A model generated the notes under the pieces. That model had not been told where the DNA came from, made no database searches, and saw only the letters and a list, made by a program, of their open reading frames with translations. From the NCBI GenBank assembly GCA_947627745.1, contig CANQXH010000014.1, positions 1-36,604 on the forward strand: a stretch of DNA of 36,604 bases. The letters are read 5' to 3'. The DNA is from an uncultured Oscillospiraceae bacterium (GTDB lineage: Bacteria > Bacillota > Clostridia > Oscillospirales > Oscillospiraceae). Shown piece by piece: positions 978-13,424 of the stretch. A program made the translations under genes and the position numbers. Position 1 is the first letter of the stretch. Every line of letters starts with the position of its first letter.

Positions 978-1006
978 TTGACAATTCTTGATTTGAAGCA
1001 TATAAT
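978..1006 (+). promoter_or_regulatory. Consensus sigma70-type promoter for the TA operon
   Basis: TTGACA (978-983), 17-bp spacer, TATAAT (1001-1006). Confidence 0.85.
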
Positions 1007-1039: not shown

Positions 1040-1483
1040 TTGACTTTGGCGGATACAAGGGCAAGAATTGAGAAAGAATTTGAAGTAAGATCCTATTTGC
1101 AGAATCTTCGATATGCATTAGAGCACAATGCGAAGGTGACATTTCAGATAGAGCGACAGGTCGATCAAAATCGAGGTCAACGGTATACAAATCAATATAC
1201 TGTTGCAGACTTATTTCCAGATGAGAACCCGGTGTCCGCATTGAAACGAGAACTACTGACATTGACAGAAGAAGAGTACATGCAGACCGTCAAAGATTTA
1301 CGTTTCCCTAAAAGAAGTGAAATGCGTGAGTTTGGAAAGGTGTATGATGGTAAGGGAGATGTCTATATCAAGCTCCGTGTGGAGTTGCTTTCCGAATATG
1401 GAGAACACACAACTTTTGTAATGTCTTTTCACTATGCGGAGATTCCTTTTACACCTGATATGTTTCCCTACAGAAAGCAGTAA
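1040..1483 (+). CDS. Putative MqsR-like toxin (TTG start at 1040 or 1046)
   Basis: 147-aa ORF with SD GGAGG. The C-terminal VYDGKGDVYIKLRVELL...FVMSFHY resembles the MqsR core (VYLKITVI...LIVSF). It lies directly upstream of a Panacea-type antitoxin. Confidence 0.6.
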   Translation: MTLADTRARIEKEFEVRSYLQNLRYALEHNAKVTFQIERQVDQNRGQRYTNQYTVADLFPDENPVSALKRELLTLTEEEYMQTVKDLRFPKRSEMREFGKVYDGKGDVYIKLRVELLSEYGEHTTFVMSFHYAEIPFTPDMFPYRKQ

Positions 1484-1491
1484 GGAGGTGT

Positions 1492-2523
1492 TTGATAATG
1501 AAGAACTTGAAAAAAGCCGATATGCTTTGCCCTTGCTGCATGGAGGAACACACAGTACAAGTCATCCGTGTTTCAGAGCATAATGTTTTCAAAAATGTGC
1601 CTGTCGATTATAGCGCTGAGTACTTCTATTGCGACCGAGCAAATGAAACTTATGAGGATGAGCAACAAATTTCTTCTAACGATATCTCCATGAAAAACGC
1701 GTATCGGGAGAAGATGGGGTTGCTTACTTCCCATGAAATTGCGGCTATTCGCGCCAGGTATGGGATCAGTCAGAGCGACTTGTGCACCTTGCTTGGTTGG
1801 GGCGCAAAAACCATTACACGTTACGAGAGCCATCAAGTGCAGGACATTGCGCATGATACAATTCTTCGTAAGTTGGCTTGCGATCCGGAGTGGTTTTTGC
1901 AATTGCTTCGCGCTGAGAAAAAATCCCTTTCTCCCGCGTCCTATTCAAAATATATGGAGACCGGGACCGTGCTTTTCGAGCAAAATCATGACCAGTATCT
2001 GAAAAGTACAATTATGTCCAAATATGCGCGATTCCTCCATAATCCAGAGGCGACGGGCGGAAAGGCATTATCACTGGATGTGGTTGTAGATATGATTCGT
2101 TACTATGCGAATTCTTCAATGGTAATAAGCTTGTTCCGGGTCAAGCTTATGAAGCTGCTGTGGTATGCGGATGCTCTCTCATACAAGCGCAGGGGGCATG
2201 CTATTTCTGGCCTCGTGTATCGCGCATTGCCCATGGGGGCCGTCCCCGTAGCATACGAATCGATTGTTGATCTGAGCACGATCCGTTGTGAGGAAATTGA
2301 GATGGGCGATGGAACGGGATATAAATTTCTCCCAACAGAGAGCAAAGAATACCCTCACTTAACAACAGAGGATCAAGAAATCCTTGACGCGGTCATCCAG
2401 CGATTTGGTAAGGCATCAAAAAACCGAATAGTCGAAGCGATGCATCAGGAAGATGCCTATACCAAAACCGCGCCGAATGATATCATCCAATTCAAATACG
2501 CTAAAACATTAAGCTTATCCTAA
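1492..2523 (+). CDS. MqsA-like zinc finger + XRE HTH + Panacea/SocA (DUF4065) antitoxin
   Basis: N-terminal CPCC motif. HTH-like ARYGISQSDLCTLLGWGAKTITRYESHQVQ. C-terminal KLLWYADALSYKRRGHAISGLVYRALPMGAVP is typical of the DUF4065/SocA domain. Confidence 0.82.
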   Translation: MIMKNLKKADMLCPCCMEEHTVQVIRVSEHNVFKNVPVDYSAEYFYCDRANETYEDEQQISSNDISMKNAYREKMGLLTSHEIAAIRARYGISQSDLCTLLGWGAKTITRYESHQVQDIAHDTILRKLACDPEWFLQLLRAEKKSLSPASYSKYMETGTVLFEQNHDQYLKSTIMSKYARFLHNPEATGGKALSLDVVVDMIRYYANSSMVISLFRVKLMKLLWYADALSYKRRGHAISGLVYRALPMGAVPVAYESIVDLSTIRCEEIEMGDGTGYKFLPTESKEYPHLTTEDQEILDAVIQRFGKASKNRIVEAMHQEDAYTKTAPNDIIQFKYAKTLSLS

Positions 2524-2911: not shown

Positions 2912-4105
2912 GTGCGATTGATCAAGCGTGACTTCTATCTGAACAAGCTGAAGGATGTCATGGGCACCCCGGATATTAAAGTCATTACCGGCGTCCGACG
3001 CAGCGGAAAGTCGAAACTGCTGGAGGCTTTTATGGCCCATGTTCTGGATACGGACCCGAGTGCGAACATCATTCATATCAATTTCAATATGAGCGCGTAT
3101 GAGGGCCTGAATGAATATCATGCGCTGAATGACTATATTGAAAAAGCATATACACCGGGGAAAAACAACTTCATCTTCATTGACGAGGTTCAGATGTGTG
3201 ATGGCTTTGAAAAAGCCATCAATAGCCTTCACGCTTCCGAGAAATACGACATTTACATCACTGGTTCCAACGCTTTCCTGCTGAGCAGTGATTTGGCAAC
3301 CCTGTTCACCGGTCGAACCTTTGAAATCGAGGTCTTTCCGTTCTCCTTTGCGGAGTTCATGCGGTACTTTGAACTGACAGACCAGTATTCCGCTTTTAAC
3401 CACTATATACAGGAGGGCGGCATGTCCGGTTCCTATCTCTATAAAACACCGGAGTCAAAATACGATTATATTTCTGATGTTTTCAACACACTGATTGTCC
3501 GGGATATCCAGCGCAAATATCGGATACGCAACATGCCGCTGATGGAGCGCCTCTGTGATTTCCTAATCGATAATATCTCCAATCAGATCTCCACGCGCAG
3601 CGTGGCGACGGGCTTTACAAGTGAACACGTCAAAACAAATGACCGCACGATCAGCGCCTATATCAAGTATCTGTGCAATGCTTTTGCGTTCTATAAGGTA
3701 AGGCGGTACGACATTCAAGGCAAACGTTACCTTGCGTCAAACGACAAATACTATCTTAGTGACCACTCTTTCAAGTATGCCAAGCTGGGTACCAAAAACG
3801 CGGATTATGGCAGGATGATCGAAAATATAGTAGCTATTGAACTTCTGCGGCGGGGGTATGAGCTTTATGCCGGGGTGCTTTACAAGAAAGAAATTGATTT
3901 TGTAGCCATCAAGCGCAACGAAAAGTTATATATCCAAGTTTCCAGCAGTATAGATGATCCTGATACCTTCAAACGCGAGATCGATCCACTGCTGAAAATC
4001 AAGGACGCCTATCCGAAATTGATCCTCACACGCATTCGCCAGGAAGCATATCAGTACGAAGGCGTGCAGATTGTTGATGTGGCGGATTGGCTTCTGCGGG
4101 ATTGA
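2912..4105 (+). CDS. ATP-binding protein, AAA_14 + DUF4143
   Basis: GVRRSGKSKLL Walker A; FIFIDEVQMCDGFEKAINSL; YITGSNAFLLSSDLATLFTGRTFEIEVFPFSFAEF; C-terminal nuclease-like IDFVAIKRNEKLYIQVS. GTG start. Confidence 0.88.
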   Translation: MRLIKRDFYLNKLKDVMGTPDIKVITGVRRSGKSKLLEAFMAHVLDTDPSANIIHINFNMSAYEGLNEYHALNDYIEKAYTPGKNNFIFIDEVQMCDGFEKAINSLHASEKYDIYITGSNAFLLSSDLATLFTGRTFEIEVFPFSFAEFMRYFELTDQYSAFNHYIQEGGMSGSYLYKTPESKYDYISDVFNTLIVRDIQRKYRIRNMPLMERLCDFLIDNISNQISTRSVATGFTSEHVKTNDRTISAYIKYLCNAFAFYKVRRYDIQGKRYLASNDKYYLSDHSFKYAKLGTKNADYGRMIENIVAIELLRRGYELYAGVLYKKEIDFVAIKRNEKLYIQVSSSIDDPDTFKREIDPLLKIKDAYPKLILTRIRQEAYQYEGVQIVDVADWLLRD

Positions 4106-4385: not shown

Positions 4386-7259
4386 ATGTTCTATAAAATG
4401 ATCGAGAATAAGTGCAGACGGTGGTACACTTCACCACAGTGCACGGTTAAAAGCCTAATTGAATATATAGAGAAAACGGGGCAAATGCGCGACGCACAGA
4501 TCGAAGCAATCAAGGTTTATCTATTTCTCAAAATTGCCTGCGATTGCAAGCCCTTGGAGTTTCTGTTCAAAAAGGGCCGGTTCAACTCTGCCAATTTGAA
4601 TGACATAGAGCTGTCTACGGCAACCCGAGAATATTTGGAGAAAAACCCGGCGGCAGCCGCACTGTTTGAATATTCCACGTTGAAAAACGATAAAGGGGAG
4701 CAGGTTTCCGAAGGGTTGGAAAAGCAGCTCAAGAAAGACCCGTCAAGTATTGACTGCGGCAGCTTCTTTCACAGCGCTTTCTACGGCGTTTCTTATCCGG
4801 ATTATCTGTTCAGTCTGCCCATGGGCGCGGGGAAAACCTATCTGATGGCGGCGTTTATCTATCTTGATTTGTATTTTGCGCTCCAAGAGCCTGCAAATCC
4901 CGCCTTTGCACATAATTTTATTATCCTTGCGCCGTCGGGATTAAAATCCTCCGTTGTGCCGAGCCTGAAAACAATACAAAATTTTGATCCCGCATGGATC
5001 ATTCCAGAACCTGCGGCGACAGAGATAAAACGTATGATCTCTTTTGAGGTGCTGGACCAGACAAAGACCGCCAATAAATCCAATAAAACCAAAAATCCAA
5101 ATGTACAGAAAATCGCGAACCATCAGCCGCTTTCTGAGCTTTTCGGGCTGGTCGCCGTCACAAATGCCGAAAAGGTGATTCTCGACCGGATTCAGGAGAA
5201 AAACGGCCAAATCAGTCTGTTTGAGGAAAGTGACGACGAAAAAGATCGGCAGGCAAACGAGCTGCGTAACCTGATCGGAAAGCTTCCGTCTCTTTCCATC
5301 TTCATTGATGAGGTACATCACGCCGTCAGCGATGAGATCAAGCTACGCGCTGTCGTTACAAAATGGGCGCAAAATAGGGCAATCAACTCTGTGGTCGGTT
5401 TTTCGGGCACGCCCTACCTTGAAAAAGTCGAAAAAATCAAGGTCGTCGACACCCTTTCCGTCGGAACGGCTGAGATCACGAATATCGTATATTACTATCC
5501 CTTAATTGACGGCGTGGGCAATTTCTTAAAACGGCCGGTGGTCAAAATCGCGGATATCGCCGACAGCAGTCGGATCATCGAAAATGGTGTCCGTGAATTT
5601 CTGGATACATACCAAAATACTGTCTATGCGGATGGAACGACCGCAAAGCTCGGTATTTATTGCGGCGGAATCGGGAAATTAGAGGAAACGGTCTATCCTC
5701 TGGTATCCCGGATTGTTGCGGAATACGGGCTCGGAGCAGATACGATTCTGAAATTTCATAAAGGGAATAAGCAGCATCCAATGCCCACCGACAGCCAAAT
5801 GCAGTTTGATAGCTTGGACAAGTCCATTTCCAAAGTCCGCATTGTCCTGCTTGTGCAGGTCGGCAAAGAGGGCTGGGACTGCCGTAGCCTTACAGGCATT
5901 ATTCTGTCCCAAGAGGGAGACTGCCCGACAAATATGGTCTTGCAAACCTCCTGCCGCTGCCTGCGCCAGGTCGTGAAGGGCAGTCCCGAAACGGCGCTTA
6001 TTTATTTGAACGAAAGCAACGCGGAGAAATTGAATATGCAGCTTGAGCAGCGACATCATATTACGCTCAAAGAGTTCTCCTCCGCCGATAATGGCAAAAC
6101 GCCATTAAAGCGTTACGACCGCACGGCGTATTTGAAGCTGCCGAAGGTCGACTTCTATCAGCTCAAAATCAACTATGACACCCTGGAGGCGGAAAAAGCC
6201 GATCCCGCAAGCGACATTGCGACTTCGGCCGATAACGCCCGCCTTGTAAGCGGCGTGATCAAGACCACCGACCTTTCTATGGATGAGAGCAAAACGACCA
6301 TTCATATTGACGATTCGGAAACCGGGAGCGAACCGGCGACCTTCCTTTCCTGGGTTTATTGCATTATGAAGGGCGGCTTCGGGTTGCCCTCGGTCGAAGA
6401 GCTGATGAAGTTTGAAGACGCTCTCAAAGCCGTCTATCAGACGATCACCTACGAAAAAGACGGGGCGCACTATTACAGCTCCAAATACGATCGAAAGCTG
6501 GTGGAGGCCAATATTCGCAAGGCCTTCTGCGCGAAACGCGACTTTACTACCACTGAGGAGCTGATCCCCGAGGCGGCCAGCCTTTTGAATATTGCCAATT
6601 TCACACCCCAGGTATATACCGACAAGCCGCAGGATTACTATCCAGCCCAGAGCACGGTGGAAAACATCATAAAGGATGATAAAGGAAAACTGAAGTCTGA
6701 TCCTAAGATGGAGGAAACCATTCGGTATCTAGAAGAAACGGGCAACGTCGCAATGGCCGCAGCCCTGCGGGCACAGAACACCTCCCACATCAATAAAGAC
6801 CGCTCTTTCCATTATCTGCCCTACCACACCGACAGCGGCTTTGAGCAGACCTTTTTGAAGGAAGTTTTGTCCTTTGATGAAATCGAAAAGCTCGGCTTGG
6901 AGGTCTACTACAACGGCGACCGCGCAATGACCGAATTCAAAATCAAGTGTTATCGGAATGACGGCGGGAAATGGAATTATATCGGCGTTTACACCCCGGA
7001 CTTTCTGATCCTCCGGCGAAAAGATGGGGTAATCCATAAGGTGATCATTGCGGAAACCAAGGGTGATGTTTACGCAAACATTCCAATTTTTAAGGACAAA
7101 AGAGCCTTTATGGAAACGGAGTTTTTGAGGCAGAACAACAAAGCCTTCGGCTATGTGCGATTTGACTATTTGTACTTGGAGGATACGCTGCCGGAGGCTG
7201 AGCGGATTTTGCGGATGCAAAAGAAAATCGAAGAATTTTTTGGAGAGGAGAAAAAATGA
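4386..7259 (+). CDS. Type III restriction enzyme Res-like DEAD/DEAH helicase-endonuclease
   Basis: LPMGAGKTYLMAAF; IFIDEVHHAVSDE; GFSGTPYLEK; GKEGWDCRSLTGIILSQ...TSCRCLRQV; C-terminal PDFLILRRKDGVIHKVIIAETKG (PD-ExK). Confidence 0.87.
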   Translation: MFYKMIENKCRRWYTSPQCTVKSLIEYIEKTGQMRDAQIEAIKVYLFLKIACDCKPLEFLFKKGRFNSANLNDIELSTATREYLEKNPAAAALFEYSTLKNDKGEQVSEGLEKQLKKDPSSIDCGSFFHSAFYGVSYPDYLFSLPMGAGKTYLMAAFIYLDLYFALQEPANPAFAHNFIILAPSGLKSSVVPSLKTIQNFDPAWIIPEPAATEIKRMISFEVLDQTKTANKSNKTKNPNVQKIANHQPLSELFGLVAVTNAEKVILDRIQEKNGQISLFEESDDEKDRQANELRNLIGKLPSLSIFIDEVHHAVSDEIKLRAVVTKWAQNRAINSVVGFSGTPYLEKVEKIKVVDTLSVGTAEITNIVYYYPLIDGVGNFLKRPVVKIADIADSSRIIENGVREFLDTYQNTVYADGTTAKLGIYCGGIGKLEETVYPLVSRIVAEYGLGADTILKFHKGNKQHPMPTDSQMQFDSLDKSISKVRIVLLVQVGKEGWDCRSLTGIILSQEGDCPTNMVLQTSCRCLRQVVKGSPETALIYLNESNAEKLNMQLEQRHHITLKEFSSADNGKTPLKRYDRTAYLKLPKVDFYQLKINYDTLEAEKADPASDIATSADNARLVSGVIKTTDLSMDESKTTIHIDDSETGSEPATFLSWVYCIMKGGFGLPSVEELMKFEDALKAVYQTITYEKDGAHYYSSKYDRKLVEANIRKAFCAKRDFTTTEELIPEAASLLNIANFTPQVYTDKPQDYYPAQSTVENIIKDDKGKLKSDPKMEETIRYLEETGNVAMAAALRAQNTSHINKDRSFHYLPYHTDSGFEQTFLKEVLSFDEIEKLGLEVYYNGDRAMTEFKIKCYRNDGGKWNYIGVYTPDFLILRRKDGVIHKVIIAETKGDVYANIPIFKDKRAFMETEFLRQNNKAFGYVRFDYLYLEDTLPEAERILRMQKKIEEFFGEEKK

Positions 7260-7888
7260 GGCTGCAAAAGAAAATCTTGATATGGTCTGGAACAATAGCT
7301 ACGGTAGCTTTAGTCCTGTCGTTTTTACTGTATAGGATACAATTTGAGTATATGAGCAATATCTGCATTGGTTTATTTTCGAGCGGAATTCTCATATGTG
7401 TAACTTCAACTGTCTCGTATTTTTATGAGCGAAATGTTATGATCCTATCTCTATATAGAGGATGTTTTAAATTTATAGATTCATTGAATTCAAATCTTAG
7501 AATTGATAATAGGATAGGAATTTATGAGCTATCAGATAACTTTTCAAAGATAATCCGTATTTATCAAGAAGATGTGTACTATTACATTTGCGAATTGAGT
7601 AAAACAAACAAGCGGTCAAAGGTTTACAAAATAACATCAAAATTGCGGGAAAATATTAGTCATATATATCTTTTTGTCGTTGATGATAAAGATGCAGTAA
7701 TGAAATGTATACTGCAAGAAATTGACATTAAAGATTTTGAATATTATTCATGGAAATGCCTCAGCGACGAATCTCTAGATTATTTGGAGAAACTCCAGAA
7801 AGATTTAGATGAACTGGCATACCAAATGAATTATTTTAACAGGAGAAAAGCAAAAAATAAAACGGAGGGCGATTCTGATGCCGATTAA
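7256..7888 (+). CDS. Two-TM membrane protein of unknown function between res and mod
   Basis: N-terminal hydrophobic segments [20 protein letters not shown] and [26 protein letters not shown] overlap with res; 11-nt overlap with mod. Confidence 0.8.
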
Positions 7889-9899
7889 ATATGTTCCCTT
7901 TATCCCTGAGCCCATCGAGGGACAGGCTGTGCTGGGGAATTTTAACAGAATTCTGAAATACAAGGGTGCCGACGATGTTTCAATGACTATCCAGCGTGGG
8001 ATGCCCCTTTATGAAATGAAAAAGCAGGAGACCGTGGGCGAAAACGCCGGCGGCAATATGGTTATTCGCGGCGAGTGCGTCTCTGCCTGTGCGTACTTAA
8101 AAGAAAATGGCATTCAGGTGGACCTCGTGTATATCGATCCGCCCTTTGCAAGCGGCGCGGATTACGCCAAGAAGGTCTATATCCGCCGCAATCCGAAGGT
8201 GGCGGAAGCCATCACGCAGGCCGAACAGGAGCTTGACAACGACGATCTGAAAGCCTTCGGGGAAAAAATGTACGGCGACGTTTGGGACAAGGAGAAGTAT
8301 CTCAACTGGATGTACGAAAACCTCATGGCCATCAAGTCCGTCATGAGCGAGACGGCCACAATTTTTATTCATTTAGATTATCATATCGGTGCATATGTAA
8401 AAATTCTTTTGGATGAGATTTTTGGAGAAGCAAATTGCATAAACGAAATTATATGGCGTCGAAAAGGTGGTACTGCATTAGGAACGATGAATTCTCTTTC
8501 TGTTGCATATGACAATATCTTTTGGTATGCAAAATCTTCCGAGTATATTATTAATCCGGTTTATACAGAAGCTTCCGAAGAATATATAAATCAACAGTTC
8601 AAATATACTGACGAAGATGGCAGACGATATATGATTACAGTTATGCGAAGCCCAAATCCTCGCCCAAACTTAATGTACGATTATAAAGGTTACAAAATGC
8701 CGCCTAATGGTTGGGCGATTACCCGTGATAAAATGGAAGAGTTAGATCGTTTAGGCTATTTGCATTTTCCAGACTCAAAAGACAAGCAAATATATAAGAA
8801 AATTTATCTTGACGAGTATCAGGGTCAGGCTATAAATAATTTGTGGATAGACATTTCAACATTAAAAGGTAGCAATAGCGAAATAGTTAATTACGCCACA
8901 CAAAAACCTGAAGAGTTATTAGAAAGAGTCTTAACGTTATCTTCAAATGAGAATATGCTCGTCGCCGACTTTTTCGGAGGCAGCGGCGTGACCGCCGCCG
9001 TGGCTGCCAAGCTTGGCCGACGCTTCATTCACTGCGATATTGGCCTGAACTCCATTCAAACCACCCGGGACCGTCTGAAAGCGGACGGCGCGGAGTTTGA
9101 CGTGCTGGAAATCAAGGACGGCGTACAGCTTTACCGCAACCCGGCGCAGACCATGGATAGAATCAAGTCGCTGATCCCCGGCCTGAAAAACGAGGATTCG
9201 CTCGATTCCTTCTGGGAGGGCGCTATTTCCGACAGCAAGCTGGGAACCGTCCCCGTTTATGTGCCGAATCTGATGGACAGCTCCTCCAAGCTGCTTGATA
9301 AGGTGACGATGAACCGCATCCTCCATCAGGCGATCCCAGACCTTGACAGCGACGTCAAAAAAGTCATTGTCTACTACATTGATATTACGGACAAAGACGA
9401 GATCCTGCGGTTTATCAAGGAGGACGACAGCACCACGGTGGAAATCGAGCTGCGCGACCTGAAAACCGTTCTAGACGATGTGATCATCGGCGATTATGCC
9501 CGGTTTCATGTAGAGGAAAACTGCGAGGACCTGTTTGGCGGATACGCCGTTGTCATTGACGGGTTTATGAGCGATCGTGTGCTTTCCAAGATCACTGAGT
9601 TCAACCAAAAAGCTTTCCTGAATTCTTCGGCCCAAAAACCGTACAAGCCCATTGAAATCAGCGAAAGCGGTTTGGAGCTGATCGAATTCTTGAGCGTTGA
9701 CTGTACCGCCACCGAGGGGGAGTGGCACTCCGACAGTGAGATCAAAATTGACAAAAACGGCTATGTAATCGCAAACGGCGTGAAAACAAAAGAATTTTGG
9801 AACGGACAGATTCGCTGTGACAAAAAGCCGCTTCGCCTCAAAATCCGCAACATCTGCGGCGACGAAACAGTGTGGAATGTGAAAAATGGGACGATATAG
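7878..9899 (+). CDS. Site-specific DNA methyltransferase (type III Mod-like)
   Basis: [21 protein letters not shown] (DPPF) followed by [28 protein letters not shown] (FxGxG). This motif order fits a beta-class MTase. Confidence 0.87.
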
Positions 9900-10422: not shown

Positions 10423-10650
10423 GGTTCGATGTTTCCGTTATTCAAAAAGCCCGCCAAGCCGTCCTTTGACCGGACGGGAAAGGAGCCCGTGATTCGGTGC
10501 AGCATCTGCACCGGCGAAAAGGTGGCGGGGTACAAATCGGAGGAGACGGGCCGGTTCACCGAGGTCATGCTGATTCGGGACGACCGGGACCTGGAGGAAT
10601 TTTTGAAAAAAAACGGCTTTACCCGGGAAGAGCTCAAGTATGAGTGGTAA
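10423..10650 (+). CDS. Small conserved hypothetical protein
   Basis: Likely starts at an internal Met: MGSMFPLFKKPAKPSFDRTGKEPVIRCSICTGEKVAGYKSEETGRFTEVMLIRDDRDLEEFLKKNGF...; upstream AGGAGG. Confidence 0.65.
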   Translation, partial: GSMFPLFKKPAKPSFDRTGKEPVIRCSICTGEKVAGYKSEETGRFTEVMLIRDDRDLEEFLKKNGFTREELKYEW

Positions 10651-13317
10651 ATTGGAAAAGGGCCCCCGGCTGGAAAGCGGCAGCTTCCCAGCCGGGGGTT
10701 TCGTTTTGCGTCTGGAGCATTTCATGGAGGTGACGGCGGAGGCGGACAGGGCCTCGGCAAAGGCAGCGCAGTCCTCCCGGGAGATGCCCTGCTCCCCGTC
10801 CATGTCGATGGCGGCGCACAGCTCCTGAAAGAAGGCCCGGAACGCCTGCTTTTCCGTTTCCTCAGGACCGACCCAATTCTCCGGGTCGGCGCCGGCGGCC
10901 AGCGCGGATAGAAACGCGGGGGTGAGCAGATCCCGCTTTTGTACCAGCTCCCGATAGGCGCCGGGGAACCGGCTTTGCATGCACAGCAGGGCGAACATGG
11001 TCAGCCGCCGCTGGCGGGAAGCGAAGGCGGCCTCGCCCATCACGCTTCGCAGAAGCTGCAGGGAGCTGAACAGCCGCTCCAGGGCCTTGGGGTCGGGGCC
11101 TACGGAGAGGATCGCCAGCTGGCTGTAATGCCCCAGCTCCTCCGGGTCCTGGGGGCGGATATTTGCCCGGCCCAGATTGTCTTCCACATATTTGGGCACG
11201 TCAAAGCTGCTCTGGAGCACCCGGAATCCCGTTTTAAAGAGCTTGTCGAAATAGGCCCCGCCGTTTTCGCCTCTTCCTTCCATCCCCTGGATGACCTGCT
11301 CCCGATCCACTGCCGCGATGAACACGCAGCCGGGGCAGTCCAGATAATAGCGCATGGCGTCCAGCAGCTCCACCGCCTGAGCAGGGGAAAGCCGATTGAG
11401 GCCGTCTACAAAGAAGAGGACCCGCCCGTTTCCGGCACTGGCCTTGCGCTTGACCAGGGCTTGGAACTGCTTGACCTTCTGCTCCAGGGAGTTGTCGGGA
11501 TCCGTTCCGAAAAGGGCGTTGGTCAGGGTTTGGCTGTCCGCCGCGCCCTTGAGAAACAATCCGGAGGCGATGCCGATGACCCCCTTGGTCAGCAGCTTGG
11601 CCCGGGACTTGGCCTCCGCGCTGCCCGCGCCCTCCAGAAGCTCGATGAGGTTGCCGCCCAGGAGCAGGGGAAGCTGCTCCCTGGGGATGGGTTGGGAGAA
11701 CTGCCAGGTGTTGAGCCAGAACACGTTTCCGCTGAGACTGTCGTGGACCATCCGCAGAAAGCTGCCGCTGCCGGATTCCCAGTCCCCCTGGATCGCGATG
11801 GCCATCGGCGTCCCGCATTGCTCCACAAAATTATGAATCCCGTCGATCAGCGTCCTGAACTGGCTCCGTTCCACGCCGGCGGCTTTCCGCTCCGCCCGCT
11901 CCGCGGAGGGGGCCTCCACCGCCGGCGGCGTCTCCGGCGGAACCTCCGGAAGGGCCTGGGGGGCGGCTGTTTCCACCGGCGGGAGGAGGACCAGCCGGCA
12001 GTCGGGGCAGCGCTCCGCCAGGAAACCTGCCAATTGGACCTGCTCCGCCGCAGACCGCTCATAGTCGGGGCTGGTCCGGCTGACGCCGAAGGGGAAGCTA
12101 CCGAAGCGGACCGATATCTCCACCGGTTCTCCGCCGGTTTGGAGGGTCAGCAGGACCCCCAGCTCCGAAACCCGTTCCTCGCCGGTTTTGCCGGCGGGGG
12201 CTGACAGCAGGGCGCTGACCAGGTCCCGGCCGGCCGCTGTTTCCACCATCTCCGCCTGGACAAGATCGGCTAATTTGTATTCCTCGGAGATCTCCCGGCT
12301 ATTTTGGCGAAGCACATGAAATACGCCCCGCTCCGGGTTGATCTCCAGCGTCTCATCGGACCCGAAGGAACAGTCAAAGCCCTGGGTCCGCTGGGCTTCA
12401 TAGGGCGCGATGGCCTTCGTCAGAAAATCGAGGACCTGGGCCCGGAAATCCGGGTCCATGGGGAACAGCTTGCTGGTGCCGTCGGTCAGGGCGGTCTCTA
12501 GGCTGTCTTCATAGGTGTAAACCGCCCGGATCTCCGGGAAGGGGACAACCTCCTGCTGCCCGGCGCTCCCGAGAAATTCCAGCCGGTCGGCATAGATATT
12601 GAGGGTGCCCTGGCCCCGGGGAAAGGAAAAGAGGATGCCCATGGCCAGGAGCCGGGCCTTCCGCTCCTCCGCGAAGGGCGTCAGCGCCGTCTGGAAAAAG
12701 GCGGAGACCTCCTCCCGCAGCTCTTTTTCCACGGTATAGGCCCGCCGGGTCCCGTCGTACATGGTAAATTCCAGAACGCCCAGGCCGGTCACCTGGGCCG
12801 TTTTCACGTCCCGGTAGAAGACGCTTTCTTTTTTTCCGGCGGGGGTCGTGTAATCGCACCGGTCGTCCAGGAGATTCAGTAGGCCATTGCTGAGCACGCC
12901 GCCCAGGCCCGAGGGGCTGCTGGGGAAGGAAAAGCGGACGCCCTGCTCCTGAAGAAGGCCCTTTCGCTGTTCCAGATAGGGCTTGACGGCCTGATCGATC
13001 ACATAAAACGCCTCGTGAAGGTTCTTCCGGTTCACCACGCAGGCTTCCGTCCGCCCGTCCTCCATGATAAAATTAATGCGGTCCAGTCCCTTCCGGACCG
13101 CCGCCAGGGAAGCGTAACGGAAGGTCATTTTCTGCACCGGGCTTACAACAAACTCTACCTTGTCCCGGTAGACCAGCAGCTTGCCGGATTTCAGCAGGCC
13201 CTTTACCTCGCACTGGTAGATGGGAAGTCCCGAATCCTCCTCCGAGACTTTTTCCCCGCAGCGGGGGCAGAACGCCGCCCCTTCCTCCAGTTCATTGCCG
13301 CATTTGACGCATCGCAT
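10438..13317 (-). CDS. Zinc-ribbon / tandem PH-like repeats / KAP-like P-loop domain protein
   Basis: MRCVKCGNELEEGAAFCPRCGEK zinc ribbon; repeated [Y/F]-x-DGT...PYxExRKxxLLxxGxxFSFP modules; KAP-like IQGDWESGSGSFLRMV and VLFFVDGLNRLSPAQAVELLDAMRYYLDCPGCVFIAAVDREQV. The 3' boundary is uncertain because the frame reads through the terminator. Confidence 0.75.
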   Translation of the reverse strand: MRCVKCGNELEEGAAFCPRCGEKVSEEDSGLPIYQCEVKGLLKSGKLLVYRDKVEFVVSPVQKMTFRYASLAAVRKGLDRINFIMEDGRTEACVVNRKNLHEAFYVIDQAVKPYLEQRKGLLQEQGVRFSFPSSPSGLGGVLSNGLLNLLDDRCDYTTPAGKKESVFYRDVKTAQVTGLGVLEFTMYDGTRRAYTVEKELREEVSAFFQTALTPFAEERKARLLAMGILFSFPRGQGTLNIYADRLEFLGSAGQQEVVPFPEIRAVYTYEDSLETALTDGTSKLFPMDPDFRAQVLDFLTKAIAPYEAQRTQGFDCSFGSDETLEINPERGVFHVLRQNSREISEEYKLADLVQAEMVETAAGRDLVSALLSAPAGKTGEERVSELGVLLTLQTGGEPVEISVRFGSFPFGVSRTSPDYERSAAEQVQLAGFLAERCPDCRLVLLPPVETAAPQALPEVPPETPPAVEAPSAERAERKAAGVERSQFRTLIDGIHNFVEQCGTPMAIAIQGDWESGSGSFLRMVHDSLSGNVFWLNTWQFSQPIPREQLPLLLGGNLIELLEGAGSAEAKSRAKLLTKGVIGIASGLFLKGAADSQTLTNALFGTDPDNSLEQKVKQFQALVKRKASAGNGRVLFFVDGLNRLSPAQAVELLDAMRYYLDCPGCVFIAAVDREQVIQGMEGRGENGGAYFDKLFKTGFRVLQSSFDVPKYVEDNLGRANIRPQDPEELGHYSQLAILSVGPDPKALERLFSSLQLLRSVMGEAAFASRQRRLTMFALLCMQSRFPGAYRELVQKRDLLTPAFLSALAAGADPENWVGPEETEKQAFRAFFQELCAAIDMDGEQGISREDCAAFAEALSASAVTSMKCSRRKTKPPAGKLPLSSRGPFSNLPLILELFPGKAVFFQKFLQVPVVPNQHDLGEPARLLRFVPRHLFAGADAAPNHGLLSRPVKGRLGGLFE
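10663..10698. terminator. Hairpin terminator between convergent genes
   Basis: CCCCCGGCTGG...CCAGCCGGGGG with T tracts. Confidence 0.75.
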
Positions 13318-13424
13318 GGGCCGTCCTCCTTCTGCTTCCATTGGAATACGTCCATTATACTTGGTTTTTCACCGCTTTTCAACCCTGGGGAGGGGCGCGG
13401 GAAACATTTTACGGAAAACAAAAA

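Follow-up and report, generated by a model that had tools for sequence, protein, structure and literature searches.

Near one end of the window, as we call the whole stretch of 36,604 nucleotides analysed here, two adjacent genes raise a question about the division of labour within a toxin-antitoxin (TA) pair. A preliminary description had taken the first gene for an enlarged MqsR-like toxin and the second for its antitoxin, in which either an MqsA-like zinc finger or a Panacea domain could be the neutraliser. Is the first protein an MqsR at all, and, if so, which domain of the second one keeps it in check? Published work has already described and tested pairs with this layout, to which the window, from a gut bacterium, adds a divergent one. 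We consider it probable that this pair forms a type II TA operon of the MqsR:PanA kind known from the literature.

The two open reading frames (ORFs) lie on the plus strand at 1040-1483 and 1498-2523, where the preliminary description had placed them. For its toxin of 147 aa, which corresponds to a start at TTG 1040, TTG 1046 (145 aa) is the likelier start, because a GGAGG motif lies 9 nt before it and just 3 nt before TTG 1040, and because several homologues begin in the register of TTG 1046. For the antitoxin the likeliest start is ATG 1498, which would give it 341 aa. The GGAGG motif that precedes this codon by 9 nt directly abuts the toxin stop codon (1481-1483), so translation of the pair may be coupled. 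The features of the locus are as follows.

953-968, strand not given: degenerate second palindrome copy GGTATCAATTGGCACC, upstream of the -35 box, with 2 mismatches to GGTATCANNTGATACC
978-1006, plus strand: predicted sigma-70-type promoter with perfect consensus hexamers, TTGACA (978-983) and TATAAT (1001-1006), and a 17-bp spacer
1007-1022, strand not given: predicted operator GGTATCAGATGATACC, a 16-bp palindrome immediately downstream of the -10 box, called from conservation and uniqueness in the genome
1032-1036, plus strand: toxin ribosome-binding site GGAGG, from the sequence
1046-1483, plus strand: toxin gene, divergent MqsR family, 145 aa (147 aa from TTG 1040), from intermediates, coincident matches of Pfam MqsR and a family model, and the conserved antitoxin neighbour
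1484-1488, plus strand: antitoxin ribosome-binding site GGAGG, from the sequence
1498-2523, plus strand: antitoxin gene with zinc-binding domain (ZBD), helix-turn-helix (HTH) and Panacea (PanA), 341 aa, from SocA_Panacea, TIGR03830 and 18 homologues
1519-1677, plus strand: MqsA-type N-terminal (zinc-binding-type) domain, residues 8-60, from TIGR03830, with C11, C14, H18, C45 and Ala48
1714-1905, plus strand: XRE-type HTH, residues 73-136, predicted to bind the operator, from TIGR03830 and sub-threshold HTH_31/HTH_3 matches
2146-2460, plus strand: Panacea (SocA/DUF4065) core, residues 217-321, from PF13274 (4.9e-21)

The identity of the toxin is not evident from direct searches. The Pfam model MqsR_toxin (PF15723) does not match it even at E=5 and has no match anywhere in the source genome, and searches of NCBIfam, PADLOC and PDB sequences, both with the single sequence and with a profile, returned nothing relevant. 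The toxin fold prediction that had been proposed in the preliminary description yielded an AlphaFold model of helices followed by a four-strand C-terminal sheet (pLDDT 78, pTM 0.71). With this model, Foldseek found weak NTF2-like or unrelated matches among PDB and viral models, none of them at E<=0.001, and did not retrieve MqsR. These matches are neither evidence for an NTF2 fold nor a refutation of MqsR, since none is significant, the model is of moderate quality and the alignment behind it is shallow.

The link to MqsR runs through intermediates. Searches with the antitoxin turned up plasmid and phage records where shorter toxins precede homologous three-domain antitoxins. Five such bridge toxins were used, from Bacteroides finegoldii, Fibrella, Tenacibaculum, Clostridioides difficile and a phage-labelled scaffold; the first of them, which adjoins a homologous antitoxin, is annotated as "MqsR family toxin". 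MqsR_toxin matches all five weakly (E=0.0003 to 0.03) over most of the profile. In hhalign comparisons the family of the window toxin aligned with the bridge toxins at P=1e-17 (probability 98.9%), and the bridge toxins aligned with nine canonical MqsR sequences at P=3e-7 (probability 93%), while six controls with reversed profiles were null (P from 0.064 to 0.4). The direct comparison of the window family with canonical MqsR was weak: it gave P=0.024, where its reversed controls gave 0.064-0.072. Being marginal, it was not taken as proof.

A family model built from both sets, the window family and the bridge toxins, matched 51 of the 399 sampled genomes of the phylum (about 13%), and the Pfam MqsR model matched 11 of the same 399 (3%). 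The two coincided in position in nine of the 11 Pfam-positive genomes (G245, G259, G293, G434, G444, G469, G517, G536 and G566). The hhalign chain with its null controls and these coincident loci argue that the toxin is a divergent MqsR. The original MqsR call is thus upheld by way of intermediates, controls and independent matches at the same positions, with no direct match. The contrary reading, "not MqsR", had been suggested when PF15723 matched none of 245 genomes from the same order, and was overturned by the intermediates and the search across the phylum. The extra N-terminal segment attributed to the toxin is also real, and incomplete as an account of its length: there is an insertion at about residues 36-62 as well, before the shared core.

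The toxin and antitoxin genes are adjacent in 23 loci of Clostridia genomes, mostly metagenome-assembled genomes from gut and rumen, and the pair also turns up in families of the phylum that are only distantly related. Toxin and antitoxin distances are correlated (r=0.82, reached in 0 of 2000 permutations), a pattern that comes from shared descent and is not in itself evidence of coevolution. In a distant relative (L074, genome G415) a single minus-strand ORF of 529 aa, at 1318-2904 in reverse-complement numbering of that locus, carries an MqsR-type toxin (62-173), the ZBD and HTH (201-329) and Panacea (381-528). It is possibly a natural single-chain fusion of toxin and antitoxin, or else an assembly error. 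The logic of such a layout is comparable to that of fused CapRel-type systems.

Upstream of the pair, the TTGACA-17-TATAAT arrangement is common to most close homologous loci. With at most 2 mismatches allowed, 26 of 27 close relatives have the palindrome GGTATCANNTGATACC in their upstream stretch, 18 of them exactly, compared with 3 of 5435 control stretches. The sole miss, L021, is explained by a deletion in the toxin, which misplaced the stretch that was searched. Within the genome the palindrome has a single occurrence, and allowing one mismatch adds no other. Equivalents of its second, degenerate copy are present in two homologous loci (L003 and L007). The position of the predicted operator at the promoter suggests that the operon represses itself.

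A strong promoter with perfect consensus hexamers would also suit a non-toxic regulatory pair in which the small protein would work with the HTH protein as a co-regulator. We regard this as highly improbable: the small protein is homologous to MqsR toxins, and the predicted operator occurs in this genome only at the promoter of the pair itself. Moreover, in three loci (L009, L023 and L029) a toxin with frameshifts or stops stands beside an open antitoxin frame, which fits a TA pair, with assembly error as a possible cause of the disruptions.

If the first protein is an MqsR-type toxin, does it act as MqsR does? The residues F, G, Y, I, K, S, F, H and A are invariant across the divergent toxin set, in the pattern FG...YIK...SFH.A. 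The catalytic Tyr81 of E. coli MqsR aligns with the invariant Tyr109 of the window toxin. The position of Lys96 is taken by the invariant His131, in a register that rests on an alignment, and the active-site residues K56 and Q68 of the E. coli protein are not recognisably kept. Among 44 distinct related loci, 42 have His where K96 would be and none has Lys, the other two being truncated or degraded. The His is not peculiar to partners of Panacea, as toxins beside ORFs with no detected Panacea carry it too. Membership in the family is thus supported, but neither the chemistry nor GCU specificity is to be assumed.

The loss of K56, Q68 and K96 together with the invariance of His131 gives rise to another reading, namely an MqsR fold with a changed activity, for instance a His-dependent ribonuclease resembling YoeB, or a protein that is not an RNase. 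Published residue equivalences between RelE and MqsR are K52/K56, R81/K96 and Y87/Y81, and YoeB has a catalytic His (PMC2791442); the R81/K96 equivalence and the almost universal His at this position speak for a change. On the other hand, the equivalent of Y81 is invariant, the predicted catalytic Tyr97 of the B. fungorum MqsR:PanA toxin is essential for toxicity (PMC10440598), and the correspondence between K96 and H131 depends on the alignment. A changed activity seems to us rather unlikely, and we keep to an MqsR-type toxin that would cleave mRNA.

The domain composition of the antitoxin had been described correctly. An MqsA-type N-terminus and an XRE HTH are recognised by the NCBIfam model TIGR03830 of the MqsA-family ZBD-HTH (1.5e-24, residues 11-136, 86.2 bits with a cut-off of 61.8), and a C-terminal Panacea domain by the Pfam model SocA_Panacea, PF13274 (residues 217-321, 76.2 bits with a curated cut-off of 25.7). 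The Pfam model MqsA_antitoxin (PF15731) matches at 4.5e-5, below its curated cut-off. Identity to 18 homologues is 53-83%, and the HTH is the most conserved segment (mean identity 80%). A Foldseek search with the whole three-domain antitoxin gave nothing useful.

The zinc finger needs a qualification: the domain is of the MqsA type, but its canonical zinc site is not intact, since the fourth cysteine is missing. In E. coli MqsA zinc is bound by Cys3, Cys6, Cys37 and Cys40, which are described as perfectly conserved (PMC2791442). C11, C14, H18 and C45 are invariant in 19 antitoxin homologues, and at the position of E. coli C40 there is Ala48 in 18 of the 19 and Thr in one. Four cysteines are kept in the close relative L048 and in most of the wider antitoxin family, which makes the loss in this clade look like a derived state. 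It is not a general property of Panacea-linked antitoxins: judged by pattern, all four are present in 21 of the 35 that bear Panacea. That H18 might replace the fourth ligand is a guess. In antitoxin relatives from Bacteroidota (L034, L035 and L039) the first CxxC pair of the ZBD is gone, which suggests a zinc-free neutralising domain there.

One could combine the two deviations. The Panacea-linked MqsR toxins of Bacillota might be a subfamily with His for Lys96 and a different chemistry or specificity of RNA cleavage. In this clade the zinc site might be rebuilt as Cys-Cys-His-Cys (C11, C14, H18, C45), so that the toxin would be released in response to another cue (metal or redox), which would be relayed with Panacea. 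We think this unlikely and mention it as a speculation.

Which domain, then, neutralises? Ernits and co-authors found for B. fungorum MqsR:PanA that the isolated ZBD and the ZBD-HTH neutralise the toxin, while Panacea alone and HTH-Panacea do not, and they favour Panacea as a sensor (PMC10440598). As this published case is homologous and has the same architecture, it answers the choice between zinc finger and Panacea in favour of the former, and by analogy we predict that the ZBD is the toxin-neutralising part here. It could be held instead that in the same TA pair Panacea neutralises directly and the degenerate zinc domain is only structural or vestigial, given that this whole clade lacks the fourth zinc cysteine and that Panacea does neutralise directly in stand-alone PanAs (PMC10440598). 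Apart from the failure of Panacea alone in an antitoxin with the same order of three domains, what speaks against this is the invariance of C11, C14, H18 and C45, which indicates that the zinc domain is under constraint, and the pairing of some related toxins with antitoxin ORFs having no detected Panacea. We find direct neutralisation by Panacea quite improbable.

For the operon in the window we propose the following mechanism. The first gene would encode a divergent, enlarged MqsR-family toxin of the RelE fold, which would cleave mRNA and arrest growth. The N-terminal MqsA-type domain of the PanA antitoxin would bind and inhibit this toxin. Repression of the operon would be the task of the central HTH, which would dimerise and bind GGTATCANNTGATACC, located at the transcription start right behind the -10 box. 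For the C-terminal Panacea domain we assume, in place of neutralisation, a role in sensing or activation, where the cue would probably come from a phage or mobile element. In the work of Kurata and co-authors, no known domain was commoner among Panacea partners than the MqsR-like one (n=90). As points against the mechanism, the same work has a Herbaspirillum MqsR that is toxic and is not rescued by its PanA, and some PanA-linked toxins that are non-toxic in E. coli (PMC8832971).

The closest described systems are the MqsR(D2):PanA pairs of B. fungorum and Lactobacillus rossiae (NetFlax, PMC10440598), which, compared by description, combine an MqsR-type toxin with PanA as the window does. PanA of B. 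fungorum has the same ZBD-HTH-Panacea order, and the predicted catalytic Tyr97 of its toxin probably corresponds to Tyr109. Features that may set the window pair apart from these systems are the toxin insertion and the ZBD without a fourth zinc cysteine. E. coli MqsRA (PDB 3HI2; PMC2791442) shares the toxin-first operon and an antitoxin with MqsA-type ZBD-HTH, and the toxins have a common core, L(T/S)..(D/E)(Y/F)...VY(I/L)K...SF, with Tyr81 kept. In contrast to the window pair, its toxin has 98 aa rather than 145, with Lys96 where the window has His131 and with the K56 and Q68 that are not kept here, and its antitoxin has four zinc cysteines and no Panacea. The plasmid pair of Bacteroides finegoldii (L034), MqsR with a SocA-domain antitoxin, has a three-domain antitoxin with 29% identity to that of the window over 297 aa, and the FG...YIK...SFH signature is in both toxins. 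It differs in a toxin of 117 aa without the insertion and in a ZBD without the first CxxC pair.

Several genes around the pair resemble defense genes. An AbiEi-like antitoxin ORF lies near the contig edge (67-651, minus strand; AbiEi_4/AbiEi_1 matches weak and below cut-off), and a gene for an AAA_14/DUF4143 ATPase (2912-4105) directly follows the pair. Further on is a type III-like restriction-modification set (4386-9899) with a ResIII protein of 957 aa and an N6/N4 methyltransferase of 673 aa, and within it a 210-aa ORF with no Pfam match (7256-7888). A P-loop NTPase of the KAP family, which carries a zinc ribbon at its N-terminus (10438-13341, minus strand), has weak matches to the PDC-S20, QatA and PifA defense models. 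In another genome (locus L027, genome G360, 1456-2964) the pair lies between the end of a terminase-large-subunit-like ORF, which is nearby, and a phage portal-like protein, which follows it directly; these flanks, read from translations, make it apparently prophage cargo in a morphogenesis region. The downstream neighbours in the window and this prophage position would fit a role in defense or phage competition.

What is somewhat new about the pair is how far its toxin sequence lies from curated MqsR models, along with the conserved His, a reduced zinc site, a clean predicted operator and the possible fusion in L074. The accepted picture of PanA antitoxins is unchanged by the pair. What it does indicate is that MqsR toxins reach well beyond what Pfam and NCBIfam recognise, and the natural variants among its relatives, with a stepwise loss of the zinc site and a possible single-chain fusion, are material for testing what Panacea senses.
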